In this document: positions 29,426 through 50,372 of the stretch, piece by piece
Layout: the number at the start of each line of letters is the position of its first letter
Numbering within the stretch: the stretch's first letter is position 1
DNA from: Tatumella citrea
GTDB taxonomy: Bacteria > Pseudomonadota > Gammaproteobacteria > Enterobacterales > Enterobacteriaceae
DNA: 64,000 nucleotides
NCBI RefSeq assembly: GCF_002163585.1
Contig: NZ_CP015579.1
Coordinates: 868,001 to 932,000 of the forward strand
Reading direction: 5' to 3'
Translations under genes and position numbers: made by a program
Notes under the pieces: model-generated
Database searches by the model: none
Told to the model about the DNA's origin: nothing
The model's input: only the letters and a program-made list of their open reading frames with translations

Positions 29426-29463
29426 CAGTACACTGGTAGCTGTAAGCCTGGGGCGGTAGCGTG
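29426..29463 (+). promoter_or_regulatory. JUMPstart with ops element (RfaH recruitment)
   Basis: The 38-bp segment nearly matches the JUMPstart consensus, with the core CTGGTAGCTGTAAGCC and ending in the exact ops GGCGGTAGCGTG (29452-29463). RfaH loads on RNA polymerase paused at ops and allows read-through of long polysaccharide operons. This marks the start of the EPS transcript. Confidence 0.93.
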
Positions 29464-31277: not shown

Positions 31278-31402
31278 CCAGGACTGACTAAGGAACGCTG
31301 CATTACAACAGCCAGTGGCAGGGATTGCCGCTGATATAATGCAGAACAGCCAGGGACAGGTAAAAGTCAGCAGTGTCTAATAATAACTGATGAAATAAAT
31401 TG

Positions 31403-32539
31403 ATGAAAACAACCGTACTGAAATTAACAGCCGCTGCAGCCCTGGTGGGCCTGCTGAGCGGTTGTACTATCATCCCCGGTCAGGGGCTAAACAGCCTGCG
31501 TAAAAATACCGTTGAACTGCCGGACAGTGACTATGACTGGGATAAACTGGTTAATGTCTACCCGATGACTCCGGATTTAATCGATCAGCTACGCCCTAAA
31601 CCGGTACTGGCACAGCCTAATCCACAACTGGACAGCCTGCTGAGTAGCTATCAGTATCGTATCGGTCCCGGCGATGTACTGATGATTACCGTCTATGACC
31701 ATCCGGAGCTGACCACCCCGGCCGGTACCTACCGCAGTGCCAGTGACACCGGCAACTGGGTGGGGGCTGACGGTGATATTTTCTATCCTTATATTGGTAA
31801 AGTGCATGTGGAAGGACAGACTCTTAATGAGGTGCGAAGTGAACTGGCCCGCCGTTTAGCCACCTATATCGAAAGCCCGCAAGTCGATGTTAGTGTGGCG
31901 GCTTTCCGTTCACAAAAAGCCTATGTGACCGGTGAAGTCACCAAATCAGGCCAGCAGGCGATTACCAATGTACCGCTTACCATTATGGATGCAATTAACG
32001 CCGCCGGAGGCCTGACAGCAGACGCCGACTGGCGCCATGTGGTACTGACGCATAATGGTAAGGATATTGTTATTTCCCTGCAGGCACTGATGCAGAAAGG
32101 TGATCTGATGGAGAACCATCTGCTCTACCCTGGCGATATTCTGTTTGTACCGCGCAATGACGATCAGAAAGTATTTGTAATGGGTGATGTCGGTCAGCAA
32201 AGCACCCTGAAGATGGACCGCAGTGGTATGACACTGGCTGAGGCGCTGGGTAATGCTCAAGGAATCAACCAGTCCACATCTGATGCATCGGGGATTTTTG
32301 TTGTAAGGAGAATACCGAAAGAAAAAGATGGCCGTATCGCTAATATTTATCAGTTAAATGCCAAAGATGCCTCCACCATGGTAATGGCCAGTGAATTCCA
32401 GTTACAGCCCTATGATATTGTTTACGTCACCGCTGCACCAATTGTCCGTTGGAACCGTGTAATTTCACAGTTACTGCCAACTATTACCGGAGTATACAAC
32501 ATAACCGAGACTGCTAATTATTATAAGGATCTCAAATAA
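31403..32539 (+). CDS. wza: Outer-membrane polysaccharide export lipoprotein Wza
   Basis: 378 aa (379 in E. coli). Lipoprotein signal with lipobox LLSGC, Cys at residue 21. The PES domain starts with [19 protein letters not shown] (about 90-108), and two SLBB-type repeats follow ([14 protein letters not shown] and [11 protein letters not shown]). A C-terminal amphipathic helix ([17 protein letters not shown]) forms the octameric outer-membrane pore. ATG at 31403 is used; a TTG directly before it is in frame. It equals AmsH of Erwinia. A 125-bp gap separates it from wzi and 2 bp from wzb. Confidence 0.96.
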
Positions 32540-32541: not shown

Positions 32542-32976
32542 ATGTTTAATTCTATTCTGGTGGTCTGCACCGGTAATATCTGCCGTTCACCGATAGGTGA
32601 GAGGATGTTACGCCGGGCATTGCCCGGTAAAAAGATCGATTCGGCCGGGGTCGGGGCGCTGGTGGACCATGCGGCCGACAGTTCGGCAATAGCGGTGGCA
32701 GAAAAACATAATCTGTCACTGGAAGGGCATAAAGGCCGACAGTTTACCGGTACTCTGGGACGTCAGTATGATCTGATTCTTGTAATGGAAAAACACCATA
32801 TCGAACAGGTGACTAAAATCGCCCCGGAAGCACGTGGTAAAACCTTATTAATCGGTCACTGGCTGTCTAATAAAGAGATTCCCGACCCGTACCGGCAGAG
32901 TATGGAAGCGTTTGAATTTGTCTATCAGTTACTGGACCAGGCATGTAACAGCTGGGCCGGTAAACTGGGCGGTTAA
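32542..32976 (+). CDS. wzb: Low-molecular-weight protein-tyrosine phosphatase Wzb
   Basis: 144 aa cytosolic phosphatase that dephosphorylates the Wzc kinase, a cycle needed for high-molecular-weight polymer. The P-loop CTGNICRSP is at residues 9-17 and the general-acid Asp is in EIPDPYRQ (about 115). It equals AmsI. It lies between wza and wzc with 2- and 17-bp gaps. Confidence 0.97.
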   Translation: MFNSILVVCTGNICRSPIGERMLRRALPGKKIDSAGVGALVDHAADSSAIAVAEKHNLSLEGHKGRQFTGTLGRQYDLILVMEKHHIEQVTKIAPEARGKTLLIGHWLSNKEIPDPYRQSMEAFEFVYQLLDQACNSWAGKLGG

Positions 32977-35319: not shown

Positions 35320-36750
35320 ATGACGCGTCTAACCCGAAATTTCTGGGTCAGTGTAATACTGATCCTCTCAGATTTTATCGGTTTTACCCTGGCAATTTAT
35401 ATCGCTATGGGGATATTACATCTTACGCTTAGCCATTTTAGTGACCGGATCCCTGAGGAGCCAACCGAAGGCTGGATTAGCCTGCACTGGATGTTGGCAC
35501 TGGTTTGTATTGGCTGGTTTGCCATGCGTCTGCGTCACTATTTTTATCGCAAGACCTTCTGGTTTGAACTGAAAGAGATACTGCGCACATTAGTTATTTT
35601 TGCGGTATTTGAAATTGCGATTGTGGCTTTTGCTAAATGGTATTTTTCCCGCTATTTATGGGTGCTGACATGGATTTTAGTACTGATTATGGTTCCGGCA
35701 CTGCGTATGCTGACCAAGAAACTACTGGATAAAGCAGGCATCTGGCGGCGTGATGCAATAATTATTGGTAGTGGAAAAAATGCTATCGATGCTTTTCAGG
35801 CGATAACCAGCGAAAAAAATCTGGGATTTCGGGTCACCGGATTTATTAATACCGAAGACCAGTTCGCTGAAGAAAAGGAATTGCACGGTATCCCATTATT
35901 ACATTGTGATACTACATGGCTGGGTAACGGGGTAGATAAACGCTTGCAGTTTATTGTGGCGGTAGAGAATCATCAGAGTGAACTGCGTAATACCTGGCTG
36001 CGTGAAATGATGATTAAAGGTTATCGTTATGTCTCGGTAATCCCAACGCTGCGTGGTGTGCCACTGGACAGTACCGATATGTCGTTTATTTTTAGCCATG
36101 AAGTAATGATTTTCAGGGTACATCAGAGCCTGGCAAAATGGTCATCACGTTTTCTGAAACGAGGGTTTGATATCTTTGCTTCCCTGGCGATTATTGTGCT
36201 GTTATCCCCACTACTGCTATATATCCGCAGTAAAGTTAAAAAAGACGGTGGTCCGGCGATTTATGGGCATGAACGAATTGGTAAACACGGTAAACCATTT
36301 AAATGTCTGAAGTTCAGATCTATGGCAGTGAATTCAAAAGAATTACTTGAAGAACTACTGGCTACAGACCCTGAAGCAAAGGCTGAATGGGATGCCACCT
36401 TTAAACTGAAAAATGACCCGCGGATTACCAGGATTGGTGCAGTACTACGCCGTACCAGTATGGATGAACTGCCGCAGTTATTTAATGTCCTAAAAGGCGA
36501 AATGAGCCTGGTGGGACCCCGGCCGATTATTCAGGAAGAACTGGAGCGTTACCATGATCAGGTCGATTACTATCTGATGAGTAAACCAGGTATGACCGGA
36601 CTCTGGCAGGTTAGCGGGCGCAGTGATGTTGACTATGAAACCCGGGTCTATTTTGATGCCTGGTATGTTAAAAACTGGTCGATGTGGAACGATATTGCCA
36701 TTCTCTTTAAAACAGTCGGTGTGGTACTGAAGCGTGATGGCGCTTATTAA
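35320..36750 (+). CDS. wbaP: Undecaprenyl-phosphate hexose-1-phosphate transferase (WbaP/AmsG type)
   Basis: Starts repeat-unit synthesis by moving a hexose 1-phosphate, probably galactose, from UDP-sugar to undecaprenyl phosphate at the inner membrane. The protein is 476 aa, the length of Salmonella WbaP. Four N-terminal helices (about 10-130) are followed by a Rossmann-like loop domain (AIIIGSGKNAIDAFQA, about 147). A membrane re-entrant helix precedes the C-terminal catalytic domain with ERIGKHGKPFKCLKFRSM, DELPQLFNVLKGEMSLVGPR and KPGMTGLWQVSGRSD. Galactose versus glucose specificity is inferred from similarity to WbaP/AmsG rather than WcaJ. Confidence 0.92.
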   Translation: MTRLTRNFWVSVILILSDFIGFTLAIYIAMGILHLTLSHFSDRIPEEPTEGWISLHWMLALVCIGWFAMRLRHYFYRKTFWFELKEILRTLVIFAVFEIAIVAFAKWYFSRYLWVLTWILVLIMVPALRMLTKKLLDKAGIWRRDAIIIGSGKNAIDAFQAITSEKNLGFRVTGFINTEDQFAEEKELHGIPLLHCDTTWLGNGVDKRLQFIVAVENHQSELRNTWLREMMIKGYRYVSVIPTLRGVPLDSTDMSFIFSHEVMIFRVHQSLAKWSSRFLKRGFDIFASLAIIVLLSPLLLYIRSKVKKDGGPAIYGHERIGKHGKPFKCLKFRSMAVNSKELLEELLATDPEAKAEWDATFKLKNDPRITRIGAVLRRTSMDELPQLFNVLKGEMSLVGPRPIIQEELERYHDQVDYYLMSKPGMTGLWQVSGRSDVDYETRVYFDAWYVKNWSMWNDIAILFKTVGVVLKRDGAY

Positions 36751-36775: not shown

Positions 36776-37690
36776 ATGAACTATTTTGTAGCAATTCCGG
36801 TATATAATGGCGGGACGGTTTGGCAACAATGCGTTGATAATCTAAAAAAATATGCCCCGGATAACCTGCATGTTCAGGTGATTGATTCTTCGAGTAAAGA
36901 TAACAGTGTAGAAATTGCCAGGCAGGCGGGGTTTGATGTGCTTACCATCAGCAGCGCCGAATTTAATCATGGTGGTACACGCAATCAGGCATTACAAATG
37001 CAGTCCGGGCATTATGATGTAGTGATTTTCCTGACCCAGGATGCAATACCTCAGCCCGGATTTATCGAAAATATCATTAGTGTGTTCTCTGATCCGCAGG
37101 TCGCTTGCGCTTACGGACGACAACTACCGCATGATGATGCTAACCCACTGGCACAGCATGCCCGACTGTTTAACTACCCCCCGGTAAGCCATATTTATAG
37201 CCAGCATGATATCCCGCAGAAAGGAATTAAAGTGGCATTTATGTCAAATTCCTTTTCCGCCTACCGTACCGATGTTTATAAGGAAATTGGTGGTTTCCCG
37301 CTTGAAACTATCTTGTGTGAAGATATGTATTTTACCGCTAAAGCAGTACTGGCCGGATATAAGGTAGCTTATGCTGCACAGGCTCAGGTCAAACATTCAC
37401 ATAATTATACTCCGGCCGAGGAGTTTCGCCGCTACTTTGATATTGGTGTATTTCATACCGATGAACCCTGGATACGCCAGCAGTTTGGTGGCGCGGGCGG
37501 AGAAGGTAAGAAATTTATTCTTTCTGAGTTTCGCTATCTGATAAAACATGGATTATGGTATATCCCGGTTGCATGTCTGAATAATTTTATGAAGATTGTT
37601 GGCTATAAACTTGGTCAGAAATATAAAAAAATACCGGCAGGGGTAATAAAAAAATTAAGTATGCATAAGCGGTATTGGACTAACAAGTAG
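36776..37690 (+). CDS. GT2 glycosyltransferase, RfbN-like (probable rhamnosyltransferase)
   Basis: 304 aa cytosolic/peripheral GT-A enzyme. It opens with FVAIPVYNGGTVWQQCVDNL, then VIDSSSKDNS, the rhamnosyltransferase-type FNHGGTRNQAL block (about 61-71), the metal-site variant FLTQDA and CEDMYFTAKA. Similarity to WbaN/RfbN, which adds rhamnose to Gal-PP-Und in Salmonella, makes it a candidate for the second sugar. It lies between wbaP and rmlB, in typical-GC DNA unlike the later transferases. Confidence 0.82.
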   Translation: MNYFVAIPVYNGGTVWQQCVDNLKKYAPDNLHVQVIDSSSKDNSVEIARQAGFDVLTISSAEFNHGGTRNQALQMQSGHYDVVIFLTQDAIPQPGFIENIISVFSDPQVACAYGRQLPHDDANPLAQHARLFNYPPVSHIYSQHDIPQKGIKVAFMSNSFSAYRTDVYKEIGGFPLETILCEDMYFTAKAVLAGYKVAYAAQAQVKHSHNYTPAEEFRRYFDIGVFHTDEPWIRQQFGGAGGEGKKFILSEFRYLIKHGLWYIPVACLNNFMKIVGYKLGQKYKKIPAGVIKKLSMHKRYWTNK

Positions 37691-37753: not shown

Positions 37754-38815
37754 ATGAAGATTATAGTCACCGGTGGTGCAGGGTTTATTGGTTCAGCTGT
37801 GGTACGCAATATTATTAATAATACCCGGGATGAGGCGATAGTGGTTGATAGCCTGACCTATGCCGGCAACCTGGAATCACTGGCAGAAGTTGCCGATAAT
37901 CCACGCTATCATTTTGAACAGGTTAATATCTGTGATCGTCAGGCACTGGATGCGTTATTTAGTAAATATCAGCCAGATGCAGTAATGCACCTCGCTGCCG
38001 AAAGCCATGTTGATCGTTCTATCGATGGTCCTGCGGCATTTATCGAGACAAATATGGTGGGTACTTATACGCTGCTGGAAGCGACCCGTCAGTACTGGAA
38101 TACACTCAGTGAGGCGGAAAAACAGGCTTTCCGTTTCCACCATATTTCTACCGATGAAGTGTATGGTGATCTGGAGGGGACCGACGACCTGTTTACTGAG
38201 ACTACACCCTATGCACCAAGCAGCCCGTATTCAGCCTCTAAAGCTTCCAGTGATCATCTGGTAAGAGCCTGGCTGCGTACCTATGGTTTACCGACCATTG
38301 TCACCAACTGTTCAAATAACTACGGTCCTTATCACTTTCCGGAAAAGCTGATCCCGCTGATTATCCTTAACGCGGTAGCGGGAAAACCATTACCGGTATA
38401 TGGCAATGGCAGCCAGATCCGCGACTGGTTGTATGTTGAAGATCATGCCCGTGCGCTTTACACCGTAGTAACTAAAGGTGAAGTGGGTGAAACCTATAAT
38501 ATCGGTGGTCATAACGAGCGCAAAAATATTGATGTAGTGAAAACCATCTGCGGCTTACTGGAGGAACTGGTTCCGAACAAACCAGCAGGAGTCGCCAGCT
38601 ATACTGACTTAATTACCTATGTAAAAGATCGTCCTGGCCATGACCTGCGTTATGCTATCGATGCTTCCAAAATTGAGCGTGAACTGGGCTGGACTCCGGC
38701 CGAAACGTTTGAAACCGGAATCCGCAAAACAGTGGAATGGTATCTGAACAATCAGACCTGGTGGCAACGGGTGCTGGACGGTTCATACGCCGGCGAACGT
38801 CTTGGTTCAATCTGA
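37754..38815 (+). CDS. rmlB: dTDP-glucose 4,6-dehydratase
   Basis: 353 aa SDR enzyme, second step of dTDP-L-rhamnose synthesis. NAD motif [15 protein letters not shown] at residue 7, [27 protein letters not shown] (catalytic Asp-Glu) and [15 protein letters not shown] with the catalytic Tyr/Lys, then [15 protein letters not shown]. It is followed by rmlA (20-bp gap) and rmlC. Confidence 0.97.
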
Positions 38816-38835
38816 TTAACAGGAAAAGAAATTAC

Positions 38836-39705
38836 ATGAAAGGTATTGTATTAGCCGGTGGTTCCGGTACCCGCTTATATCCAATTACTCAGGGCGTCTC
38901 AAAACAGCTGATGCCGATCTACGATAAACCGATGGTGTTTTATCCTATCTCGGTATTAATGCTGGCCGGCATTCGCGAGATTCTGATTATCTCGACGCCT
39001 GATGATATGCCAGGTTTTAAACGTCTGCTGGGTGACGGTAGCCAGTTTGGTGTCAGTTTCTCTTATGCAATTCAGCCTAGCCCGGACGGCCTGGCTCAGG
39101 CCTTTATTATCGGCGAAGAGTTTATCAATGGCGACAGCTGTGCGCTGGTATTAGGCGATAATATCTACTTTGGCGAAAGCTTTGGACGTAAACTGGAAAA
39201 CGTGGTTCAGCGTAACGAAGGTGCGACAGTCTTTGGTTATCAGGTGATGGATCCTGAACGTTTTGGTGTAGTTGAATTCGATGAAAATAACCGCGCAATT
39301 TCTCTTGAAGAAAAGCCAGCTAAACCAAAATCTAACTGGGCTGTAACCGGCCTCTACTTCTATGACAAAGATGTGGTGGAGATGGCTAAACAGGTTAAAC
39401 CATCAGAACGTGGTGAACTGGAAATCACCACCCTCAATGAAATGTATCTTGAGAAGAATTCCCTGCATGTAGAGAAGCTAGGTCGTGGATTTGCCTGGCT
39501 GGATACCGGTACCCATGACAGCCTGTTAGAAGCATCATCATTTATTCATACCATCGAGAAGCGTCAGGGCTACAAAGTCGCTTGTCTGGAAGAGATTGCC
39601 TATAAAAAAGGCTGGCTCACTAAACAGCAGGTGCAGGTACAGGCAAAATTACTGGCAAAAACCGGCTACGGACAATATTTACAACGTATGATTGAAGGGA
39701 ACTAA
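38836..39705 (+). CDS. rmlA: Glucose-1-phosphate thymidylyltransferase
   Basis: 289 aa nucleotidyltransferase making dTDP-glucose, first step of dTDP-rhamnose synthesis and feedback-inhibited by its product. Motifs: [22 protein letters not shown] in two blocks, [21 protein letters not shown] and [19 protein letters not shown] in two blocks. Start ATG at 38836; the open frame upstream lies inside rmlB. It ends 1 bp before rmlC. Confidence 0.97.
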
Positions 39706-39706
39706 C

Positions 39707-40240
39707 ATGCAGGTTATTGATACCAAAATTGCCGATGTAAAAATTATCCAGCCAAAAGTATTCGGTGATGAACGTGGTTTCTTCCTCGAAACGTTTGAGA
39801 AAAAACGCTACCAACAAATGCTGAATATCGATTTTGACTTTGTTCAGGATAATCATTCGCGCTCTTCTAAGGGAGTATTGCGCGGGCTGCATTTCCAGAC
39901 CAAACATGCGCAGGGTAAGCTGGTGCGGGTAGTACGTGGTGAGGTGTTTGACGTTGCCGTAGATATCCGTAAAGACTCGCCGACCTATGGTCAGTGGGAA
40001 GGGGTGCTCCTTTCTGAGGAAAATAAAACTCAGTTCTGGATCCCACCCGGTCTGGCGCATGGCTTTGTGGTACTTTCAGATATCGCAGACTTTGAATATA
40101 AATGTACCGATTACTATACCCCGGGTTTTGAGGGCTGTCTGGCCTGGAATGACCCAGAAGTGGGCATTGAGTGGCCTATAGATTTTGAACCTTTGCTTTC
40201 AGAAAAAGACAGTAACGGACAGAAATTATCTGAATTCTAA
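39707..40240 (+). CDS. rmlC: dTDP-4-dehydrorhamnose 3,5-epimerase
   Basis: 177 aa cupin, third step of dTDP-L-rhamnose synthesis. Motifs: VFGDERGFFLETF, QDNHSRSSKGVLRGLHFQ in two blocks (catalytic His), VRGEVFDVAVDIRKDSPTYG and WIPPGLAHGFVVLSD. ATG at 39707 is preferred over a TTG at 39692. It is the last gene before the sharp drop in GC; rmlD is not adjacent but lies 7 kb further on. Confidence 0.97.
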   Translation: MQVIDTKIADVKIIQPKVFGDERGFFLETFEKKRYQQMLNIDFDFVQDNHSRSSKGVLRGLHFQTKHAQGKLVRVVRGEVFDVAVDIRKDSPTYGQWEGVLLSEENKTQFWIPPGLAHGFVVLSDIADFEYKCTDYYTPGFEGCLAWNDPEVGIEWPIDFEPLLSEKDSNGQKLSEF

Positions 40241-40285: not shown

Positions 40286-41203
40286 GTGGAATTTATATCA
40301 ATTATTGTCACATATCAGCCAGAACCAGGAACTATAAATCTCATCGCAGAATTGTTAGCTCAGAGTTCTCAAGTTATTGTAGTTGATAATGGTAGTGATA
40401 ATGAGAGAATTAAGAAGTTACAAGAACATTTTTATTCCGAAAATACAGTTTTTTTCATTTTAAATGAATCGAATGTAGGTATAGCGACAGCATTAAATCA
40501 AGGTCTTCGTTCAGCTAAGAAAAAAGGATACCAGTGGGCTTTTACTTTTGACCAGGACTCAAGAATAAATGAAAAATTTATTCTTGAAATGATATTAACT
40601 AAAGAAAATGTTGATATTATTTCCAAAGATGGAAAAAAGAAAGCTTCAATGATCGGGGCAAATCAAATTGACTGTTCGGATAAAGATAATAGAATTAAAT
40701 TCATAAAGTTCAGTAATAGCAAATGGAAATATATAATACCAGAAAAAGATTGTGAAGTTTCAATACTTATATCTTCAGGCTGTTATATAAATTTAGATAT
40801 CTGGGAAAGTCAAGGATGCTTTATGGATAATCTGTTTATAGATCAAGTGGATACAGAGTATTGTATTAGGAGTTTAGTCAATGGGTATAATATATATGTA
40901 TCTAATAATGCAATGCTATATCATAAATTAGGCGATCAATCAAAAGGATCTTTTCTTGGTAGAGATGTAAGACCAACTAATCATAATGGTATTCGACGCT
41001 ATTATATGATTAGGAACTCAATATATTTATATAAAAAATATATAAGAGAAAAACCAATTTGGGTGATTTTCGATATCAATAATAATATAAAAATGTTGAT
41101 AAAATTAGTTTTATTCGAAGATCAAAGACTGCATAAGTTAAGTCTTATGATGCAAGGTCTAGTAGATGGGATAAAAAACAAAATGGGTAAGATTCCACGC
41201 TAG
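40286..41203 (+). CDS. GT2 glycosyltransferase (rhamnosyltransferase family)
   Basis: 305 aa, start GTG at 40286. GT-A motifs: IVTYQPEPGTINLI, VVDNGSDNERI, NVGIATALNQGL and the D-x-D equivalent FTFDQDSR (about 87-94), then LFIDQVDTEYCIR. The D-Q-D-S and D-x-V-D-x-E-x-C blocks are typical of the rhamnosyltransferase-type GT2 subfamily. It is the first gene of the AT-rich block; codon use is unlike the housekeeping genes. Donor and acceptor are unknown. Confidence 0.82.
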   Translation: MEFISIIVTYQPEPGTINLIAELLAQSSQVIVVDNGSDNERIKKLQEHFYSENTVFFILNESNVGIATALNQGLRSAKKKGYQWAFTFDQDSRINEKFILEMILTKENVDIISKDGKKKASMIGANQIDCSDKDNRIKFIKFSNSKWKYIIPEKDCEVSILISSGCYINLDIWESQGCFMDNLFIDQVDTEYCIRSLVNGYNIYVSNNAMLYHKLGDQSKGSFLGRDVRPTNHNGIRRYYMIRNSIYLYKKYIREKPIWVIFDINNNIKMLIKLVLFEDQRLHKLSLMMQGLVDGIKNKMGKIPR

Positions 41204-41212: not shown

Positions 41213-42310
41213 ATGTTTTACGCCGTAATATGGATATGCTATTTAATTTTAGCATCTCTAGCATTAATAGGTTTGAAAGGGATAACATTAAATAAAAATC
41301 AGTATTTGTTACTATCAAGTATAGTGGCAATAACTCTATCCTTGATAGTTTATGAGTTTGGACCTGAGTATTCACCAGATTATGATATGTTTGAAGACTG
41401 GTATGGACGCTCTAAATTAGAAGTATTTGGGGAGTCATGGGTATCACTAAAAGATCCAGCATTTTATTTTATGTCTAGATTTTTTAATTGGTTAGGTCTT
41501 TCATATGACTATATGAATTTCTTCTTCTGCCTGATATCTATCAGTTCATTAATGTTCTTACTAAGATCTGAAAAGTTTAGACGATATATTTTTGTTATAT
41601 TACTAGTGTATTATTCTAGATTTTACTTTGTTCATGACTTTACACAGGTCCGATTTTCAGTAGCAATAATACTAAGCACAATAGGTTATTTTTTATTTTC
41701 AGAAGATAAATATATAAAAGCTTTTTTGCTGATTATAGTTGCGGCATTGTTCCATATTTCCGCAGTTTTCTGTGTGATACCACTTTTATGTAGATTACTT
41801 CCAAGAAAAAGTCTATCAATGAAAATAATACTAGTTTTATTATTGTCATTTATATTTCTTGGTTTGCTAGTTAATCCTGATGTGATAATAAATTTTTTCC
41901 AGTCGATTCCAATCGTATACAACAGACTATTACCGTATTTAAATGGGGCATACGGTGTTAAAGCTACAAGGATTATTACCACATACTTTATGTTAAAGTT
42001 TGTCATACTTATTCTTGTGTCCACAGTGCTCATTGTTAGAAAAAAAGATTGGGAAAAAGAATATATATATCTTGTCTACACAGTATGTATTTCAATAATT
42101 TTAAGTGTGGCATTCAGATCGAATGATGCAATAGCATTAAGATTTGTTGAATACTTTGCGATATTTGATATATTATTTTTCATCGAAAGTTTTTACTTTT
42201 TAAATAAAAACTATCTTTATAAGAAAATAGGTATGGATGTATTTGGTTTTGGAACAATACTGCTTTCGATTATTTGGGTATTATCAAGCATTAAATTATT
42301 CAAAGGATAG
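41213..42310 (+). CDS. wzy: EpsG-family polysaccharide polymerase (Wzy)
   Basis: 365 aa protein with about ten hydrophobic segments, starting AVIWICYLILASLALIGL. It shows EpsG-family landmarks: an early acidic loop (FGPEYSPDYDMFEDWY), YYSRFYFVHDFTQVRFSVA (in the RxG/QxR-like polymerase region) and AALFHISAVFCV. It is the only multi-spanning candidate besides Wzx, so it is the likely Wzy that polymerises flipped repeat units in the periplasm (the role of AmsC). Low sequence conservation is normal for Wzy. Confidence 0.82.
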   Translation: MFYAVIWICYLILASLALIGLKGITLNKNQYLLLSSIVAITLSLIVYEFGPEYSPDYDMFEDWYGRSKLEVFGESWVSLKDPAFYFMSRFFNWLGLSYDYMNFFFCLISISSLMFLLRSEKFRRYIFVILLVYYSRFYFVHDFTQVRFSVAIILSTIGYFLFSEDKYIKAFLLIIVAALFHISAVFCVIPLLCRLLPRKSLSMKIILVLLLSFIFLGLLVNPDVIINFFQSIPIVYNRLLPYLNGAYGVKATRIITTYFMLKFVILILVSTVLIVRKKDWEKEYIYLVYTVCISIILSVAFRSNDAIALRFVEYFAIFDILFFIESFYFLNKNYLYKKIGMDVFGFGTILLSIIWVLSSIKLFKG

Positions 42311-42315: not shown

Positions 42316-43179
42316 ATGAAGATGGCATCATTATTTATATTGTACAATCCTGGGGAATCCGAACTGGACAAGATTAAGGGTTATTGTAGAAAGTTCGATA
42401 CAGTGGAATGGATAATAATTGATAATTCTAAAGAAAAAACAGATTTTTTTGATAATGTTATTGGTTGCAACTACATACATAACAAGAATAAAGGAGGTAT
42501 TGCTGGAGCTATTGCGAGAGGAATTGAAAATACATCTGATAATATAAGTTATGTATTCACCTTTGATCAGGATTCTGTTGTTCCTGATATATATTTCAAT
42601 TCGATGGAAGCTTTTATACTAGATAAAAAAGCTAAAATAGTGTGTTCCAATTTTATTGATGTTAATTCAAACACCTATGCAAAGTTTGTTCATTTAAAAA
42701 AATTCGGATATGACGTTGTTAATGACTCGGATTTTACAACTTTTGCCATCAGTTCAGGGATGGGGATTTCAAAAGATTTTTGGGATGAGATATCTGGGGT
42801 CAATGAAAATTATATTATTGACCATGTTGATACAGAGATTTGTCTGAAAGCTTACGTCAGGAATGAAGTTATATATATTAATTACGAAATCTGTCTAGAA
42901 CATGCAATAGGAGATAGGCGCGTTTTCAAATTTATGGGAGTGACGCTGAAACCGAACAACCATAACTATATAAGAAAATATTATATAGTAAGGAATGGTA
43001 CACACTTGTCGTGGAAGTATTTTTTTAAATCACCCGGGTATTTCTACCTAAATGTTTTAAGAATTATACACGAAGTATTATGTACTGTTTTATACGAAGA
43101 AGATAAAGCTAGAAAAATAAAATATATGATGCTTGGCTTTTTTCATTCTTGTATAGGTAAACTAGGAAGTATTAAATGA
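42316..43179 (+). CDS. GT2 glycosyltransferase (rhamnosyltransferase-like)
   Basis: 287 aa. Motifs parallel the protein at 40286-41203: WIIIDNSKEKT, NKGGIAGAIARGIE, FTFDQDSVVPD (about 77-87), ISSGMGISKDFW, IIDHVDTEICLKAY and NNHNYIRKYYIVRN. The start region SLFILYNPGE is degenerate compared with the usual VTYNR. It overlaps the next gene by 4 bp (ATGA), indicating coupled translation. Donor is unknown; the subfamily favours dTDP-rhamnose. Confidence 0.8.
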   Translation: MKMASLFILYNPGESELDKIKGYCRKFDTVEWIIIDNSKEKTDFFDNVIGCNYIHNKNKGGIAGAIARGIENTSDNISYVFTFDQDSVVPDIYFNSMEAFILDKKAKIVCSNFIDVNSNTYAKFVHLKKFGYDVVNDSDFTTFAISSGMGISKDFWDEISGVNENYIIDHVDTEICLKAYVRNEVIYINYEICLEHAIGDRRVFKFMGVTLKPNNHNYIRKYYIVRNGTHLSWKYFFKSPGYFYLNVLRIIHEVLCTVLYEEDKARKIKYMMLGFFHSCIGKLGSIK

Positions 43180-43916
43180 AAAAAACTAATGTTAGCTTTG
43201 TTATTTTAACCTGGAATCGCGAAGTTTTTTTAAAAATGTGTTTGCCTGCTTTATATAACGCCATACAAAAAAAAACAGAATGTGAAATAATAATTATGGA
43301 TAATTGCTCTGATGATGACTCATATAAATTCATGCAAGAGTTTGAAAGAGACTACAAGGATTTTATTGGGATTAAAATATTCAGAAATGAAGTTAATTCA
43401 GGGATTAATGCATATAAAAAACTTTTTGCAGAAGCGTCAGGTTCTATTATTATTGAAGTTGATGATGATGTCATTGAGTTTCCTGATGAAGTAGATAATA
43501 TATTCATTGATTATTTTTCTTGTTTCAAAAGGTTTGGTTTTATTGCATTAGATGTAGTTCAAAATGAATTAACAAATGGGTCTAAACCAGGAAAAGAAAA
43601 CTATATTGATTGTTATTATCAAGATAAAATAATCCAGAAAGGACCTACCGGGGGATGGTGTGCAGGTTTTAGGCGAAAACACTATATGATGATTAAATGG
43701 TTTTTTAATAGATACAACCTTAATTTTAAATTTGGAGAGGATGGATTTATTCAACTAGCCTTTAAATTTTTGGGGTTAAAGTCAGGAATAATAAAAGATA
43801 TAAAGTGTTTACATGCGTCTGGCCCGATATACTCAAGGATGTATGGTTTAACTGGCAGGGATATAGAGAAATATGAATCTTCAGGGATGGTAAATATGGC
43901 TGAAAAATATAAATAA
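43176..43916 (+). CDS. GT2 glycosyltransferase
   Basis: 246 aa GT-A enzyme: VSFVILTWNREVFLKMCLPA at the N-terminus, IIMDNCSDDDSY, NEVNSGINAYKKLF and a metal-binding acidic cluster IIEVDDDVIEFPD (about 91-103), then a GPTGGWCAGFRR substrate loop and FGEDGFIQLAFK (general base region). It is short for the family but has all core motifs. It is translationally coupled to the preceding gene. Confidence 0.82.
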   Translation: MKKTNVSFVILTWNREVFLKMCLPALYNAIQKKTECEIIIMDNCSDDDSYKFMQEFERDYKDFIGIKIFRNEVNSGINAYKKLFAEASGSIIIEVDDDVIEFPDEVDNIFIDYFSCFKRFGFIALDVVQNELTNGSKPGKENYIDCYYQDKIIQKGPTGGWCAGFRRKHYMMIKWFFNRYNLNFKFGEDGFIQLAFKFLGLKSGIIKDIKCLHASGPIYSRMYGLTGRDIEKYESSGMVNMAEKYK

Positions 43917-43927
43917 GGTGATTTATT

Positions 43928-45295
43928 ATGCTAACCAGAAGAAACCTCTTAATTTCAGTAATGATATTTTCTCCTGCTGCTTCTTCATCTCTGTGGGAAC
44001 AGATGAAAATAACCAAAAAAAAAATACTGACCGTTGATGAGTTTAACAATCTTAGTGACGCGAAGGAAGGCGATGTAGTTTTTTTGAATTCATATTCGAA
44101 AAATACGGAGCGGGGAGGAGGTTACTTTAAGCTGGTTAGCAGTAAAAACAAAAAAATTGATAATGGCATTACATTTGAAAGTAACTTCAAGGATTATGTT
44201 TGGTGCCGGATTGGAGTTGTAGACTATATAACTCCGGAATGGTTTGGGTGTTTAGGTGATGGAGAAACTGATGATGGACCTGCGTTTAACCGCTGTTTAT
44301 CATCGTTGAAACCTGGAAATAAACTGGTTTTACGGAAAAATGCTACATATTTCAATGGATTAAAAAATAACGATTCAAAATGGATAATTGAAGTAAATGA
44401 TATTGAAATTATCTCTGATAATAGTACTTTAAGAAGGCGTGGAACCTATGGCAGTACATATGAATATCTATATGGTAATCTCTCTACGTTAGAAATAAGA
44501 GGAAGTAATTTGAAATTCCACGGCTCTATTATCATAGATGGAGGTGAGGATGATTATTTTCTTGTAGATAAAAAAAATAATTCTATCTCTAATTTGAAAT
44601 TTTCCAGAGGGTCAACCTCTTCTCATGCGTTATATATAGAATCTGCAAAGGATATTATGTTTAACGGCATGGTTCATTGTAAAAATGCAGTGTTTCCGTG
44701 TTATATAAATAAATCATGTAATATTTATTTGAATGGTGAGTTTGTTAATTCAGGCCAAGTGTTCCCTGTAAGGGGGAACGATCTGCAGTTGGGATCTTGT
44801 ATTAAGATTTCAGCGTCCAACAATGTTACTGTTAATGCTAAATGTAAAATGTCTGCATATTCAGGCTGTGAGATTGAGCCACGTTCAACTAATGTTAATA
44901 TTAATTTAATAACGGAGAACTGTTTTTTCTATGGAGTTATTATTCATGATCATTCCAGCAAAATAAATTTAAGCCTAAAGTCTGACAGAAATATAAAAGG
45001 TGCTGGACTGAGGGTTAGCGATGGAAGTAAGTCCATAAAAGGTGATATATATGTTTCAAATTCTGGGCACGCAGTAATTATATCATCTTTTGATAAAGAC
45101 ATTTGCGAAGATGTTGTTTTAAATGTTTATCCTACCAACATTTCAGGTGATATAATTCAGGCTTTCAATACTAAGATTTCACAAAGAGCACTTGAAAGTT
45201 CTGATATCAAAGTTTTCTATACTGAGAGAAGGGGGTCTATTCCGATCATGCCAAAAAAAAGTAATGAACCTCAGATTCAATATTTTATTAAATGA
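43928..45295 (+). CDS. Tailspike-like right-handed beta-helix protein (AmsF/WceF-type EPS-modifying enzyme)
   Basis: 455 aa, 11 bp after a GT2 gene, with AAGG-TGA upstream. A basic/hydrophobic N-terminus (MLTRRNLLISVMIFSPAASS) looks like an export signal. About residues 55-115 resemble the linker of phage tailspikes: RGGGYFKLV, NGITFES, VWCRIG, then WFGCLGDGETDDGPAFNRCL, the classic GDG-x-TDD entry of pectate-lyase-like beta-helices. The rest is serial short beta-rungs rich in Asn/Ser/Gly. AmsF (Erwinia) and WceF (Pantoea stewartii, reported as a tailspike-like, stewartan-modifying protein) sit in the same place in their clusters. Catalytic residues cannot be assigned by eye. It may trim or remodel polymer. 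Confidence 0.78.
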   Translation: MLTRRNLLISVMIFSPAASSSLWEQMKITKKKILTVDEFNNLSDAKEGDVVFLNSYSKNTERGGGYFKLVSSKNKKIDNGITFESNFKDYVWCRIGVVDYITPEWFGCLGDGETDDGPAFNRCLSSLKPGNKLVLRKNATYFNGLKNNDSKWIIEVNDIEIISDNSTLRRRGTYGSTYEYLYGNLSTLEIRGSNLKFHGSIIIDGGEDDYFLVDKKNNSISNLKFSRGSTSSHALYIESAKDIMFNGMVHCKNAVFPCYINKSCNIYLNGEFVNSGQVFPVRGNDLQLGSCIKISASNNVTVNAKCKMSAYSGCEIEPRSTNVNINLITENCFFYGVIIHDHSSKINLSLKSDRNIKGAGLRVSDGSKSIKGDIYVSNSGHAVIISSFDKDICEDVVLNVYPTNISGDIIQAFNTKISQRALESSDIKVFYTERRGSIPIMPKKSNEPQIQYFIK

Positions 45296-45320
45296 CTTTT
45301 TGTCTAAGTGGTATTTTGAG

Positions 45321-46268
45321 ATGAGTAAAGACGAAGTTTTAGAGTATGGTGTTTCAGTAATAATCCCTATTAGAAATAGTTCAGGTTATATATCTAAAAC
45401 AATTGAAAGTGTAATTTCATCGTCTACATCCATTCCTTATGAAATTATTCTTATTGATGATTTTTCAAACGATATTGATCTAACGAAAGAAATTGTAACT
45501 AAATACGAGAATGTGATCCTTTTGCAGAAGAACGAAAAATCTAATGCTTCTGTTTCGAGAAACATTGGAATCTCGAAATCAAAGTATAGATTTGTATTCT
45601 TACTCGATTCAGATGACTTGTTTGAACCTAAATATATCGCTGATAGAATAAAATTTATGAATAGAAATCAATCCGGTATTTATTTTGGACCATTTAAGGA
45701 CTATCATAATGAAGCTGATTACAACATAGTTACATTCTCCGGTGAAATAAATGATTTGAGAGATTTTATTTTTCTAGAGCATGGGGATTTTAGAAGTTCG
45801 ACTATATCTATCGATAAGAAAAATTATTTGGGTACACTCTTTGATCCATTGCAAGATAAACATCAAGATTGGGGTTTTGCAATAAGATGTGACGATGCTG
45901 GTGAGTTGATTTGTTATGATACTGATAATCCTCAAGTATGTATATGTAAAGACAGACACATGCAAATGAGTCGCACGATGAATGTTTCCGCTAGTAAGTA
46001 TTTTATCAATACATATCTTGAATCTGAAAAGTATATAATTTCGTTCATAAGGAAACATCTGTTATTATGTGTTCTAATTAAAGACTTCAATGCTTACTTT
46101 TTCTTCAAAGAACAAACTGCTTTTATTAATATACTTAATAATAATTTTTTTTATAGGTTTTTGGATGTGTTAATAACATGTGATTTTATTAGGTTAAAAA
46201 CCCCGAATCTTATTAGGTTGCTTACTTTATTTTATATTAAATTCACAATTTTAATAAAGGGTAAGTGA
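45321..46268 (+). CDS. GT2 glycosyltransferase
   Basis: 315 aa. GT-A signature at the N-terminus: VSVIIPIRNSSGYISKTIES, IILIDDFSND, SNASVSRNIGISKSK and the metal motif FLLDSDDLF (about 97-105), then a downstream DKHQDWGFAIRC. ATG at 45321 is chosen from homology; the frame is open upstream to 45192 inside the beta-helix gene. The C-terminal 90 residues are hydrophobic and aromatic-rich, suggesting membrane association. It ends 2 bp before the next transferase's start codon. Confidence 0.8.
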   Translation: MSKDEVLEYGVSVIIPIRNSSGYISKTIESVISSSTSIPYEIILIDDFSNDIDLTKEIVTKYENVILLQKNEKSNASVSRNIGISKSKYRFVFLLDSDDLFEPKYIADRIKFMNRNQSGIYFGPFKDYHNEADYNIVTFSGEINDLRDFIFLEHGDFRSSTISIDKKNYLGTLFDPLQDKHQDWGFAIRCDDAGELICYDTDNPQVCICKDRHMQMSRTMNVSASKYFINTYLESEKYIISFIRKHLLLCVLIKDFNAYFFFKEQTAFINILNNNFFYRFLDVLITCDFIRLKTPNLIRLLTLFYIKFTILIKGK

Positions 46269-46270
46269 TT

Positions 46271-47176
46271 ATGGTTATTTTTAAAAAAATATTAACATTC
46301 CTTAGTATAATTAAAGAACTTGCTTGTCCTGTAACTTCAATTGAAAAAAAAACTTTCTCATTCAGCCAAAATAAAACTTCGGTGCCATCAGACATTCCCC
46401 GTATCATATGGTTATATTGGGGGTCTGGTAGGGATGATACTCTTGTTGATTTATGTATTAAAAACATAAAGACAAAGTGTAATAAGTATCAAGTTAACTT
46501 TTTGGATGAAAATAATTATTCAAGTTTCATAAAAAAAATCGATTTTCCACCAAATATTTTAGCTGCCCACAAATCAGACCTTATTAGACTCAATTTGTTA
46601 AAGAAATATGGCGGTATTTGGGTCGATGCAACTTCTTTTTTATTTGATGATTTTGACTGGGTGATTAATAGCTGCTCAGCTGATGATGTGTTTGTCTGCT
46701 ACTCAGACGATTGCACTACTGATTTTAATCAACCGATAGTTGAAAATTGGCTGATTGCGAGCCCACCGGGGTCTCATTTCATAATTGAATGGTTAAAAGA
46801 ATTTGAGAAAAGCATTTTTAATGACCAAGGTGATTCATATTACGATGATCTAATAGGAAGTAATATTGTCCAGGGATTACCAGAACTGTCTTACCTTAGA
46901 TGTTACGTGGCTTGTGCTTTGGTTTTGTCAAAAAGAAAATACAATCTACAAATGGTTAATTCTGGTAGTACAGGCCATTTTCTAAATTACATATTTAAAT
47001 CTAAATCAATATTTATTGCAATCGCTGTATGTCTCAGTTCCTCTAAATCTATATACCATCCACCTGTTTTGAAATTTACTAGTGGGACAAGATTTTGGGT
47101 TCGTATTTTCCTAGAAAAAAAGATTTATTTAAAGCATAGTATTTTAGGTGAAGTCATTTCAGGTGTAGATGAATAA
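46271..47176 (+). CDS. Capsular polysaccharide glycosyltransferase (Caps_synth / GT32-like)
   Basis: 301 aa. After a hydrophobic start, the family opener IPRIIWLYWGSGRDDTLVDL (about 41-60) is followed by the sugar-binding, D-x-D-containing block HKSDLIRLNLLKKYGGIWVD (about 99-118). This pattern is that of Pfam Caps_synth/Gly_transf_sug enzymes. ATG at 46271 is preferred; GTG at 46265 overlaps the previous stop. A GGAG-like AAAGGG lies upstream. Donor is unknown. Confidence 0.8.
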   Translation: MVIFKKILTFLSIIKELACPVTSIEKKTFSFSQNKTSVPSDIPRIIWLYWGSGRDDTLVDLCIKNIKTKCNKYQVNFLDENNYSSFIKKIDFPPNILAAHKSDLIRLNLLKKYGGIWVDATSFLFDDFDWVINSCSADDVFVCYSDDCTTDFNQPIVENWLIASPPGSHFIIEWLKEFEKSIFNDQGDSYYDDLIGSNIVQGLPELSYLRCYVACALVLSKRKYNLQMVNSGSTGHFLNYIFKSKSIFIAIAVCLSSSKSIYHPPVLKFTSGTRFWVRIFLEKKIYLKHSILGEVISGVDE

Positions 47177-47231
47177 AATTAATTTTGTTAAGTTATTATA
47201 TTTTAAAATCATTTTAAAGGTGAGGGCGATT

Positions 47232-48086
47232 ATGAAAGTTTTGCTAACCGGAGCTAAAGGACAATTAGGTAAGTGTTTCACAGATATTAGAAAAGAAAAT
47301 GTACTTTTAATCCCTCTTGATTCGAAATCTCTTGATATTTGTGATAGAGAAAAAGTCATATCATTAGTAGAACAATATAAACCTGATGTTATTATCAATT
47401 GTGCTGCCTATACTTCTGTTGATAGAGCTGAAGTTGAGAGTCAACAGGCTGTAAATGTCAATAGTTTTGGGCCAGCAAATCTTGCAATAGCCGCCAAAAA
47501 TATTGGTTCTAAATTAATTCACATTTCTACTGATTATGTTTTTGATGGTTACAAATCGGAACCATATGTTGAAACTGACCTTGTTAATCCTAGAAGTGTT
47601 TATGGAAAAACAAAATTAGCCGGTGAATTATTAATTCAAAGTATTTTTCCAGAATCAGTTATTCTCCGGACTTCCTGGGTATTCAGTGAACACGGTAATA
47701 ACTTCCTAAAAACGATGCTTCGTATAGGTCGAGATAAAAATGAAATAAATGTAGTTTCTGACCAGCTTGGATGCCCAACTTATGCAGGTGATATTGCAAA
47801 TGCCGTATATAATATGATCGATTGTGATGCATCAGGTGGGATCTATCATTTTTGTGGTGGAGAAAAGATTTCTTGGGCTGGCTTTTCGGAGTATATCTTC
47901 CAGTGTGCATTTCAAATGGGTTATATTCAGATAAAGCCAAAGGTGAACTTTATCACTACTTCCGAGTTTCCGACCTTGGCTGCCCGCCCATCATTTTCAG
48001 TAATGTCTACTTCAAAAATATCACATTTTACACCACCATCTGACTGGAAAAAGGCAGTCATGAAAGTCATAAGTTTAATCAATTGA
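47232..48086 (+). CDS. rmlD: dTDP-4-dehydrorhamnose reductase
   Basis: 284 aa SDR, last step of dTDP-L-rhamnose synthesis. Motifs: MKVLLTGAKGQLGKCF, VIINCAAYTSVDRAE, HISTDYVFDGYKSEPY, the catalytic Tyr/Lys in RSVYGKTKLAGE and RTSWVFSEHGNNFL. ATG at 47232 has AAGGTGAGGG upstream. It is AT-rich like its glycosyltransferase neighbours, and unlike rmlBAC, which are near the genome average. Confidence 0.95.
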   Translation: MKVLLTGAKGQLGKCFTDIRKENVLLIPLDSKSLDICDREKVISLVEQYKPDVIINCAAYTSVDRAEVESQQAVNVNSFGPANLAIAAKNIGSKLIHISTDYVFDGYKSEPYVETDLVNPRSVYGKTKLAGELLIQSIFPESVILRTSWVFSEHGNNFLKTMLRIGRDKNEINVVSDQLGCPTYAGDIANAVYNMIDCDASGGIYHFCGGEKISWAGFSEYIFQCAFQMGYIQIKPKVNFITTSEFPTLAARPSFSVMSTSKISHFTPPSDWKKAVMKVISLIN

Positions 48087-48126: not shown

Positions 48127-48948
48127 ATGTTAATTGTTAATATTACTACTATTTCATCAAGACTTGATTTATGTGCAGCAACTTTATTTTCTTTAGTTTT
48201 ACAAAGTAAAAAGCCAGATAAGATAATCGTGTGGGTCTCAAAAGACAAATATCTGTCTGATGATGGAATTAACAATGTTCCTGAGTGGTTAGATAAACTC
48301 AATATTTTTGCTGATATTATTGAGTTTAAGTTTACTCGAAATACTGGCCCTTATAGAAAAATAATGCCTATACTAATGGAATGTAATGATAACGACATTC
48401 TAGTGTATGCCGACGACGATGTTATTTATGGACGAGAGTGGTTGAGTGAATTGTATTCTCATTTTTGTGAATTTTCGGGTGAGTATGTTGTTGCTTCAAG
48501 AATACGGAAAATGAGAAGAAATATATTTGGTCACTTAAGAAGTTATAATGATTTCCCTCTCGTTGCCGATTCTGAAATTTTATATAAAGATTTTATAATT
48601 ACTGGTGTCGGTGGTTGTATGTTATCCAGGAAGCATATATTAAGCAAGTTCGTCTTTACCGATGATTATTTAAGTTTAGCACCTAAGGCTGATGATATAT
48701 GGCTAAGCATTTCTATGCAACTTAGTGGTGCCAAAGTTTTACCATGTTTGAAAGCTTACTCACAAGTTCAACAGATTGAACATGACAATTTTGCCCTTAG
48801 TAGTTTCAACACACTCTTTAAAAGAAATACTAAATGGAACGCTCTAATCAGTAAAGTGAGAAATAAAGTATTAGGCTACCTTGGTTATTCATTAACCATG
48901 AATGATAAAACATTAAAGTTAGTTATTTCAAGCTTGAAGAATAAGTGA
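48127..48948 (+). CDS. Glycosyltransferase (GT2-like)
   Basis: 273 aa. It begins IVNITTISSRLDLCAATLFS, a form of GT-A start seen in EPS clusters, then KIIVWVSKDKYLSDDG and the acidic metal motif ILVYADDDVIYGREWL (about 93-108). A GGC-rich acceptor loop follows (ITGVGGCMLSRKHIL), then APKADDIWLSISMQLSG with the likely catalytic Asp pair. The subfamily is unassigned. It precedes wzx with only 5 bp between stop and preferred start. Confidence 0.75.
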   Translation: MLIVNITTISSRLDLCAATLFSLVLQSKKPDKIIVWVSKDKYLSDDGINNVPEWLDKLNIFADIIEFKFTRNTGPYRKIMPILMECNDNDILVYADDDVIYGREWLSELYSHFCEFSGEYVVASRIRKMRRNIFGHLRSYNDFPLVADSEILYKDFIITGVGGCMLSRKHILSKFVFTDDYLSLAPKADDIWLSISMQLSGAKVLPCLKAYSQVQQIEHDNFALSSFNTLFKRNTKWNALISKVRNKVLGYLGYSLTMNDKTLKLVISSLKNK

Positions 48949-48953
48949 TACAA

Positions 48954-50372
48954 ATGAGACTATTAAATAATGTAAAATGGGTATCAATTTCTCAATTAGT
49001 TAAAATTTCTAGCCAAATGCTTGGGATTTTTGTTTTTTCCAGATTTCTTTCTCCTTCTGAAATCGGACTTATGTCCATGGCTACCGTTGTTGTGAATTTT
49101 ACTAACATAATTAGAGATCTTGGTTCTTCTGCGGCAATCATTCAAAGAGAAGAAGTAACTGAAGAGTTGAAAAGATCAGTTCTTGGGTTAAATTTTATTT
49201 TTGGTTCTCTGATTTGTATCTGTATAATTATATTCTCGCATACTATTTCCATTTTTTTTAACGAATTAAGACTCGTTCCCATTTTAATTATTATTGCTTT
49301 CACTTTTCCTATAAATAGTATAACTTCTATTCATTTGGCATTATTAGAGAGGGAGTCGAAATTTCAAAAAATTGGCCTGGTTGAAATTGTCTCCTCTTTG
49401 GTTTCGTTATTCACAGCCATCATTCTATGTATCTCAGGTTTTGGTGTCTACAGCTTAGTTGTTCAAGTAGTTTTATATTCAATTCTTAGCGCTTTTGGTT
49501 TTGTTGTATCCTCTCAATGGAAGAGCGCTATTAGTTTTAATTTTTTTGCTGTAAAAGAGTTGTTATCTTTTACTTCTGGGCTTGTCGCATTTAATTTCAT
49601 TAATTATTTTTCCAGGAATGCGGATCAAATTATTATTGGGAGATTTTCTAATGCATCCACTCTAGGGCAATATTCTCTTTCTTACAGGTTAATGCTCTTC
49701 CCTGTGCAGAACATTACATTTGTTTTGACACGCTCACTTTATCCTATCCTTAGTCGATTACAAAATGATAAAAATGCTGCTTTTAACTCGTATATGCAAG
49801 TTGTCAAAGCCATTTCTATATTAACTCCGCCTTTGATGTTAGGTTTATCTTCTGTAAGCGTCGAATTTGTTCGTTTTTTCTTTGGTCCTAAATGGGATAT
49901 GGTTCCAGGATTGATCTTTTGGCTTGCCCCTGTGGCTATTATGCAATCTTTTGTAAGTACTACAGGGTCAGTTTTTATGGCCAATGGAAAAACTAATGTT
50001 CTTGTGTCAATAAGTATTTATAACGCTATTCTTCAAGTTGGTGCTTTTATTATTGGTGGTTTCTTTGGTGTTTTTTGGCTAGTCAAACTTTATTTTATTG
50101 CTAATGTTTTGATGTTTTTTCCTAACATGTATCTGGCAGTAAAAATGTTACATGGCAGTTTTGTTAAGTTTTTATCTGTAATTATAATTCCAATTTGTTG
50201 TGCCTTGATAATGTATATCATAGTGCTATTTTCGAAAATTCATTTCTTATCAGGTGTAGGTGAGGTGGTTAACCTTGTTGCCTCTATTTTACTGGGGGTT
50301 GTGGTATATTCATTATTAATTGTCTTGGTTGAACGAAAGTGGGTAATGAGTTCTTTAAAGTTTAAACGATAA
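48954..50372 (+). CDS. wzx: Repeat-unit flippase (Wzx, MOP/PST family)
   Basis: 472 aa inner-membrane protein with about 12-14 helices of the Polysacc_synt_3 type (WzxC/AmsL-like). Conserved features: VKWVSISQLVKISSQMLGIF at the start, RFLSPSEIGLMSMATVVVNF, RDLGSSAAIIQRE and FSRNADQIIIGRF near residue 215, plus LLERESKFQKIG. It flips undecaprenyl-PP-linked repeat units to the periplasm. ATG at 48954; GTG at 48945 is an alternative that overlaps the previous stop. It is the last gene of the EPS operon. Confidence 0.93.
   Translation: MRLLNNVKWVSISQLVKISSQMLGIFVFSRFLSPSEIGLMSMATVVVNFTNIIRDLGSSAAIIQREEVTEELKRSVLGLNFIFGSLICICIIIFSHTISIFFNELRLVPILIIIAFTFPINSITSIHLALLERESKFQKIGLVEIVSSLVSLFTAIILCISGFGVYSLVVQVVLYSILSAFGFVVSSQWKSAISFNFFAVKELLSFTSGLVAFNFINYFSRNADQIIIGRFSNASTLGQYSLSYRLMLFPVQNITFVLTRSLYPILSRLQNDKNAAFNSYMQVVKAISILTPPLMLGLSSVSVEFVRFFFGPKWDMVPGLIFWLAPVAIMQSFVSTTGSVFMANGKTNVLVSISIYNAILQVGAFIIGGFFGVFWLVKLYFIANVLMFFPNMYLAVKMLHGSFVKFLSVIIIPICCALIMYIIVLFSKIHFLSGVGEVVNLVASILLGVVVYSLLIVLVERKWVMSSLKFKR

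Follow-up and report, generated by a model that had tools for sequence, protein, structure and literature searches.

Why should a bacterial locus for the synthesis of an exopolysaccharide (EPS) contain, among its glycosyltransferase genes, a gene whose product resembles a phage tailspike and starts with an export signal? The question is raised by an open reading frame (ORF) in a 64,000-nt stretch of DNA from Tatumella citrea (the window, to whose positions all coordinates in the window refer; residue numbers are those of the ORF product), which a first-pass annotation had described as a tailspike-like beta-helix enzyme built into an EPS operon. The answer that we consider probable, with moderate confidence, is that the product (hereafter, the EPS-locus helix protein) is a mini-depolymerase without head or stem, exported by twin-arginine translocation (Tat), that trims the polymer its own locus produces. 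The gene, its locus, its homology, its predicted fold, and its retained residues were obtained by computation, while its export, catalysis, substrate, and monomeric state are what we infer.

Homology to Phage Tailspikes and Domain Architecture

On sequence comparison, the relation of the EPS-locus helix protein to tailspikes is far beyond chance. The protein matched PHROG 5510 (“tail fiber protein”; E = 5.2e-25) over aa 39–381 and PHROG 4250 (“EPS depolymerase”; E = 6.4e-11) over aa 25–124, and tblastn with the protein as query found matches in 32 of 50,697 phage records (29 Klebsiella and 3 Serratia; best E = 1e-27) as well as in 8 of 72,556 plasmid records, all Klebsiella. The single match in a Pfam scan, to PF12708 (Pect-lyase_RHGA_epim; E = 0.098), fell below its cut-off (12.9 bits; cut-off 27), and a scan of NCBIfam gave no match. 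The GDGETDD entry motif named by the first-pass annotation is present (as LGDGETDD at aa 109–116) but, since PF12708 stays below its cut-off, is weak evidence by itself. The tailspike-type linker (RGGGYFKLV, NGITFES, and VWCRIG) fared better; these segments sit in a neck that aligns with the necks of phage tailspikes and of proteins of the type of WceF, the tailspike-like protein of Pantoea stewartii.

The helix is homologous along its length to the PHROG 5510 tailspikes of Klebsiella phages FKP3, Seifer, Magnus, and PhiKpNIH-2 and to the tailspike of a prophage resident in the T. citrea chromosome, and it retains the GQxxP, DLxxGxxxK, and ExE motifs of these helices; when aligned, it was 24–28% identical to the resident prophage tailspike, six phage proteins, and one plasmid protein. 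The phage proteins (657–789 aa in the seven examined) have a virion-binding head and a C-terminal part, both of which the EPS-locus helix protein lacks; they are encoded by phage tail genes and carry no export signal, whereas the T. citrea gene belongs to an EPS locus and a signal peptide takes the place of the head. On the Klebsiella plasmid pKN-LS6, a tailspike gene of the same family (positions 3200–5569 of the fetched stretch) has two holin genes and a GH19 gene behind it, and the region is therefore taken as a phage segment on a conjugative plasmid. Searches of genome contigs with the protein alone or with a nine-row profile (A1) gave no confirmed relative, and neither a search of viral contigs with the protein alone nor a DNA search of Escherichia coli genomes found any. 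No substrate for phages with PHROG 5510 tailspikes was found among literature titles, and, among titles and abstract openings, neither this protein nor a prophage wzy with an adjacent Tat-exported depolymerase was the subject of any paper.

The coordinates and intact frame that had been assigned to the gene are correct. AAGGTG, a ribosome-binding-like sequence, is found a few bases upstream of the ATG start codon, and the N-terminus of the product, MLTRRNLLISVMIFSPAASS, is export-like, as had been claimed, with a twin-arginine pattern including LTRRNLLI that was recognized by inspection; TatC is encoded in the same T. citrea genome. A stem lost by frameshift was considered and rejected, as the DNA downstream of the gene had no significant match to phage or prophage C-terminal parts (best E = 0.46).

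Relation to WceF and Other Tailspike-Like Proteins of EPS Loci

Passages of the published account of WceF (PDB 6tgf) describe a 736-aa trimer with a P22-like head, a neck, a helix, an intertwined stem, and a Tat signal, which hydrolyses stewartan, slowly in vitro, and whose knockouts result in longer stewartan (PMC7949094). WceF and the EPS-locus helix protein are both encoded among the EPS glycosyltransferase genes of a Wzx/Wzy locus, both carry a Tat-type signal, and both are right-handed beta-helices, by structure and by prediction, respectively. Sequence similarity of the EPS-locus helix protein to two WceF-type proteins, one of which matches 6tgf from end to end, was found in the neck (37% identity in an 89-aa and 30% in a 105-aa alignment; E = 5e-8 and 6e-7); BLAST against WceF-type proteins aligned the neck and first rungs only (aa 32–134 at most), and phmmer against 6tgf aligned only aa 33–121 (E = 0.1). 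While the neck of WceF is preceded by the P22-like head (in one WceF-type protein, aa 58–169 match PDB heads of the P22 type), the neck of the EPS-locus helix protein starts at about aa 33, right behind the signal; the C-terminal triple helix, beta-sandwich, and stem of WceF-type proteins have no counterpart in the T. citrea protein, which ends at aa 455, and its helix has no detectable sequence similarity to the WceF helix. Because only the neck region and first rungs share sequence, we rejected the possibility that the protein is a WceF ortholog; as judged from these alignments, its helix is from a different tailspike lineage. The likeness to WceF proposed by the first-pass annotation thus holds for the tailspike fold, the export signal, and the rhamnose-type EPS locus, but not for orthology, the head and stem, or the lineage of the helix; the depolymerase activity on a rhamnose-containing polymer and the new specificity that the annotation proposed are putative.

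Among 27 other places matched by profile A1, nine encode proteins with MKRRE at or near the N-terminus, as in WceF-type proteins. One of these (L026) matches 6tgf over its whole length and, as read from the sequence, is encoded in a wza–wzc locus; another (L031) is 73% identical to L026, and the seven remaining ones were classed by their N-terminus only. The N-terminus of L028 is MKRRELLQ. Two further proteins differ from this type. The first (L022; L061 8094–9908) has approximately 600 aa, starts with MGGHMNRRD, shows a helix match to PHROG 27731, and is encoded approximately 4.5 kb from genes that read as galU-like; the second (L034; L062 8371–10344) is a 657-aa tailspike-like protein whose helix is different. 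Its N-terminus is long, basic, and export-like, and its gene lies within the EPS locus of another genome, which also encodes ManC and a sugar transferase. BLAST of L022 and L034 against the EPS-locus helix protein revealed no helix similarity. The WceF-type, L022, and L034 cases therefore show that several tailspike-like proteins with export-type N-termini and differing helices are encoded in or near EPS-type loci.

Predicted Fold and Candidate Active Site

The AlphaFold2 model of the EPS-locus helix protein is a beta-helix (mean predicted local distance difference test score (pLDDT) 73.4; predicted template modelling score 0.73), with pLDDT < 50 at aa 1–33, 177–181, 280–285, and 415–455. Fold searches with this model matched right-handed beta-helices in the PDB, i.e., tailspikes, WceF, and polygalacturonases, with a Foldseek E of 9.5e-7 for 6tgf; WceF was not among the 50 PDB matches listed in a further fold search, and the adhesin PfbA was also among the matches to the model. 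The predicted fold is thus the right-handed beta-helix on which the first-pass annotation had staked its reading, and the invariant acidic residues, candidates for the groove to which it had attached the same weight, are retained. Among the 31 columns that are invariant across 12 relatives, the EPS-locus helix protein retains 24, including 5/5 acidic (E104, D116, D285, E315, and E317) and 2/2 basic positions.

These residues also bear on the alternative that the EPS-locus helix protein is an exported EPS-binding protein that acts as a lectin or cross-links the matrix and has hardly any or no catalytic activity. We regard this as unlikely, although it has some appeal; WceF, according to the same published passages, autoagglutinates with stewartan and cuts it slowly (PMC7949094), and beta-helix folds occur in adhesins, PfbA being an example that the model itself matched. 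Retention of all seven acidic and basic positions that are invariant in the 12 relatives argues against a purely binding role and is consistent with a depolymerase.

A Second Copy of the Helix in a Resident Prophage

In genome sets with one genome per species, a search with the EPS-locus helix protein matched 4 of 197 relatives, including its own genome, which was the only one with a further match that covered the helix, located elsewhere in the chromosome (E = 2.6e-29). This second place in the T. citrea chromosome encodes a 700-aa tailspike and adjoins phage tail, tape-measure, virion-structural, and portal genes; IMG/VR holds the tailspike of this resident prophage (692/692 residues identical), and no near match to its region was found in phages. 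Profile A1 matched 22 of 392 family genomes, the own genome included, with the matches in the 21 others ending by model position 141 of 417, while a helix-only profile (A3) matched just 1 of 394 Enterobacterales genomes, namely the own genome, and did so twice (in the EPS locus and in the resident prophage). If the other copy were placed at random among the 394 genomes, it would fall in the own genome in about 1/394 of cases, a rough figure for a query taken from the same genome and a set with one genome per species. A recent direct capture from the resident prophage is not supported, because the two copies are only 24–28% identical, a level no higher than that to Klebsiella phages. The resident prophage tailspike gene adjoins an acyltransferase-3 gene (PF01757; L006 17210–18157), a candidate receptor-modifying conversion gene.

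A Signal-Bearing Helix in a Metagenomic Prophage

A viral-contig search with profile A1 yielded 14 loci. A 58.5-kb metagenome virus record, IMGVR_UViG_3300013683_000006 (L047/L070), encodes a 521-aa protein with a twin-arginine-like start, MNTLSRRKLLTTALTATCS. Alignment of this protein with the Klebsiella phage FKP3 tailspike gave 46.8% identity over 440 aa, and alignment with the EPS-locus helix protein gave 29% over 294 aa. Both proteins carry a Tat-type signal and a PHROG 5510 helix and lack the head and the last part of the phage proteins; however, the 521-aa protein is encoded in a prophage beside wzy, whereas the T. citrea protein is encoded in an EPS locus. Because the 521-aa protein has approximately 50% identity with the helices of Klebsiella phages, against 27% with the T. 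citrea protein, the two are probably separate captures; a single origin is less likely given these identities, and a tree left 8 of 10 inner branches open.

The same record contains baseplate genes (Mu GpP-like and Baseplate_J) and encodes a tailspike of 664 aa from this helix family (E = 3e-17 when compared with the EPS-locus helix protein); an EpsG-family wzy lies on the other strand. As it ends in a formate/nitrite transporter gene, presumably a host gene, and also encodes an S24-type repressor, the record looks like an integrated prophage, in which wzy and the signal-bearing helix appear to be placed between the tailspike and the host gene. No transfer RNA gene was found in the 1400 bases at its end, and no relative of its wzy on other viral contigs. 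The tailspike, EpsG-family wzy, and Tat-type-signal helix lie side by side at 6221–11566 of this record, and may form a polysaccharide-conversion cassette with a putative exported depolymerase. In Acinetobacter, prophage wzy genes near tailspike depolymerases have been described along with a changed capsule linkage, in published passages that describe no exported depolymerase (PMC13228068).

The two prophages invite the view that the EPS-locus helix protein mainly serves in defence, by trimming or shedding a surface polymer that is the receptor for phages with the same kind of tailspike; the sole other copy of the helix in 394 Enterobacterales genomes belongs to a prophage tailspike encoded in the very same chromosome, and the metagenomic prophage has a signal-bearing form beside wzy and a tailspike. 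We nonetheless consider a mainly defensive role improbable, as the EPS-locus helix protein and the resident tailspike, whose common substrate would be hypothetical, are only 24–28% identical, and both the position and the base composition of the gene link it to the EPS locus.

The EPS Locus

The gene sits in a complete Wzx/Wzy locus that includes rmlBACD and is preceded by a JUMPstart element (Table 1). Its placement between glycosyltransferase genes, as first annotated, was confirmed, with a glycosyltransferase family 2 (GT2) gene as neighbour on either side; the next gene starts 25 bases past its stop codon. The guanine plus cytosine (GC) content of the measured genes from 40286 to 50372 (GT2 to Wzx) is 0.29–0.36, while that of earlier genes is 0.43–0.51 and that of the background 0.43–0.52, suggesting that the polymer-specific part of the locus was imported; the gene itself (GC 0.335; GC at third codon positions 0.275) is in line with this low-GC block.

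Table 1. Features of the EPS-locus helix protein gene and of the surrounding locus, by position in the window.
Feature	Position	Strand	Basis or remark
JUMPstart element RF01707, containing GGCGGTAGCGTG	29426..29463	+	51.3 bits (gathering 35), E 2.5e-9; upstream of wzi gene
wzi-type capsule assembly gene	29655..31277	+	PF14052 E 1.9e-78; listed start TTG, true start probably later
wza	31400..32539	+	NF011658
wzb	32542..32976	+	
wzc	32994..35162	+	
wbaP-type initiating sugar-phosphate transferase	35320..36750	+	TIGR03022, above cut-off
GT2 glycosyltransferase	36776..37690	+	
rmlB, rmlA, rmlC	37754..40240	+	
GT2 glycosyltransferase	40286..41203	+	
EpsG-family Wzy polymerase	41213..42310	+	PF14897 E 6.6e-28
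Two GT2 glycosyltransferases	42316..43916	+	
Tailspike-like beta-helix protein with export signal	43928..45295	+	intact ORF, ATG start, TGA stop, 455 aa
Tat-type signal peptide, ~aa 1–31	43928..44020	+	TRRNLLI motif, by inspection; cleavage site a guess
Tailspike neck, ~aa 33–100	44024..44227	+	PHROG 4250 and PHROG 17640 matches; alignments with WceF-type proteins
Right-handed beta-helix, ~aa 101–414	44228..45169	+	PHROG 5510, AlphaFold2 model, fold searches
R170	44435–44437	+	outside the D285–E317 span
Q277	44756–44758	+	outside the D285–E317 span
Candidate catalytic residues D285, K293, E315, E317	44780..44878	+	invariant in alignment A2, kept against 12 relatives
C-terminal tail, aa 415–455, where a phage stem would be	45170..45292	+	low model confidence
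GT2 glycosyltransferase	45321..46268	+	directly after the tailspike-like gene
Caps_synth-type glycosyltransferase	46265..47176	+	PF05704
rmlD	47169..48086	+	
Weak GT2-like gene	48127..48948	+	below Pfam cut-off
Wzx flippase	48945..50372	+	PF13440

Relatives of the Wzy polymerase were found in 8 of 391 other family genomes, at no more than 29% identity, and Wzc in 6/6 genomes of the genus, including T. citrea. In the EPS regions of five congeners, which were scanned as operon-strand ORFs of at least 130 aa within the fetched stretches (one of which ends at a contig end), there was no phmmer match (E up to 10) to the EPS-locus helix protein, L026, L031, L022, or L034; the gene is thus an accessory of the EPS locus of its own genome. 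Two of the congeners' EPS regions (L077 13463–14641 and L079 1240–2418) seem, from N-terminal sequence only, to hold a mannose-6-phosphate isomerase-like gene of their own. Three matches to the ops sequence GGCGGTAG were found, one of them inside the JUMPstart element before the wzi gene. The order of JUMPstart element, wzi-type gene, and wza raises the possibility that RfaH controls the polymer and that part of it stays bound to the cell as a capsule.

Proposed Function

In the mechanism that we propose, the EPS-locus helix protein would combine two parts of a phage tailspike, its neck and its catalytic beta-helix, minus the virion-binding head and the trimerising stem, and would be exported folded via Tat to meet the growing or secreted polymer, either in the periplasm while the polymer is being exported or extracellularly. 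It would cut the polymer of its own locus internally (i.e., as an endo-acting enzyme, more likely a hydrolase than a lyase), and cutting would determine the viscosity or the length of the chains, a role also ascribed to WceF with stewartan. Catalysis would probably be carried out by acids among D285, E315, and E317, with R170, Q277, and K293 nearby. The missing stem makes an intertwined trimer doubtful and suggests a monomer, for which trimmed KP34gp57 provides a precedent; passages of the published work report that KP34gp57 trimmed of its C-terminus is a monomer with full activity, and its authors suggest that bacteria could accommodate monomeric depolymerase versions (PMC10653864). Like the EPS-locus helix protein, trimmed KP34gp57 is a catalytic beta-helix without a C-terminal trimerising domain; it is, however, a laboratory construct derived from another tailspike and has no export signal; the two are likened by architecture.

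Several observations weigh against this proposal. When only three relatives are compared, the protein keeps 6/9 conserved acidic and 2/5 conserved basic positions but 48/80 conserved positions overall, and retention of acidic and basic residues is therefore not above the overall rate. The loop that contains D285 has pLDDT < 50, and modelling of the final 41 residues is poor. Headless WceF aggregates and neckless WceF is insoluble, as stated in the WceF passages (PMC7949094). The presence of rhamnose in the polymer is suggested by rmlBACD, the identity of 24–28% means that phage substrates are not transferable to the EPS-locus helix protein, and a gene known from a single genome offers no measure of the constraint on it.

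That the protein is instead a lyase or epimerase, or performs a step in polymer release or export, rather than being a trimming hydrolase, seems very unlikely to us, as its helix matches tailspikes in sequence, not epimerases. Least credible is a decaying, functionless remnant of a phage gene, because, although the stem is missing, the last 41 residues lack a confident model, and a recognisable relative was found in 0/5 congeners' EPS regions, the gene has a full-length frame, a ribosome-binding-like site, a signal in place of the head, and the retained invariant residues, no significant trace of a stem follows it, and the 521-aa signal-bearing protein likewise stops before the phage C-terminal part.

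Implications

Tailspike-like proteins of the WceF kind were already known from EPS loci; the present case differs in the lineage of its helix and has an unusual companion in a resident prophage and a parallel signal-bearing form in a metagenomic one. To the known cases, the EPS-locus helix protein adds a recruitment from a tailspike lineage other than that of WceF, stripped down like an engineered monomeric mini-depolymerase. We tentatively extend this, with low confidence, to the idea that polysaccharide loci and polysaccharide-converting prophages may share one pool of tailspike modules, which, with a Tat signal added and head and stem removed, would become exported mini-depolymerases that select the surviving polymer or Wzy linkage; the T. 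citrea EPS-locus enzyme and the resident tailspike would then share a polymer substrate or have closely related ones, and the exported enzyme of the metagenomic prophage, with a new wzy as its partner, would remove the chains that the host's own polymerase produces. The pair of wzy and exported helix in that prophage would be a conversion cassette of a kind absent from the literature titles and abstract openings searched. The EPS-locus enzyme and the prophage tailspike of a single strain represent a natural pair for testing a shared substrate and a phage–host conflict over one polymer. Confirmation of the proposed trimming role would mean that bacteria have recruited the cutting part of phage tailspikes on more than one occasion for adjusting their slime.
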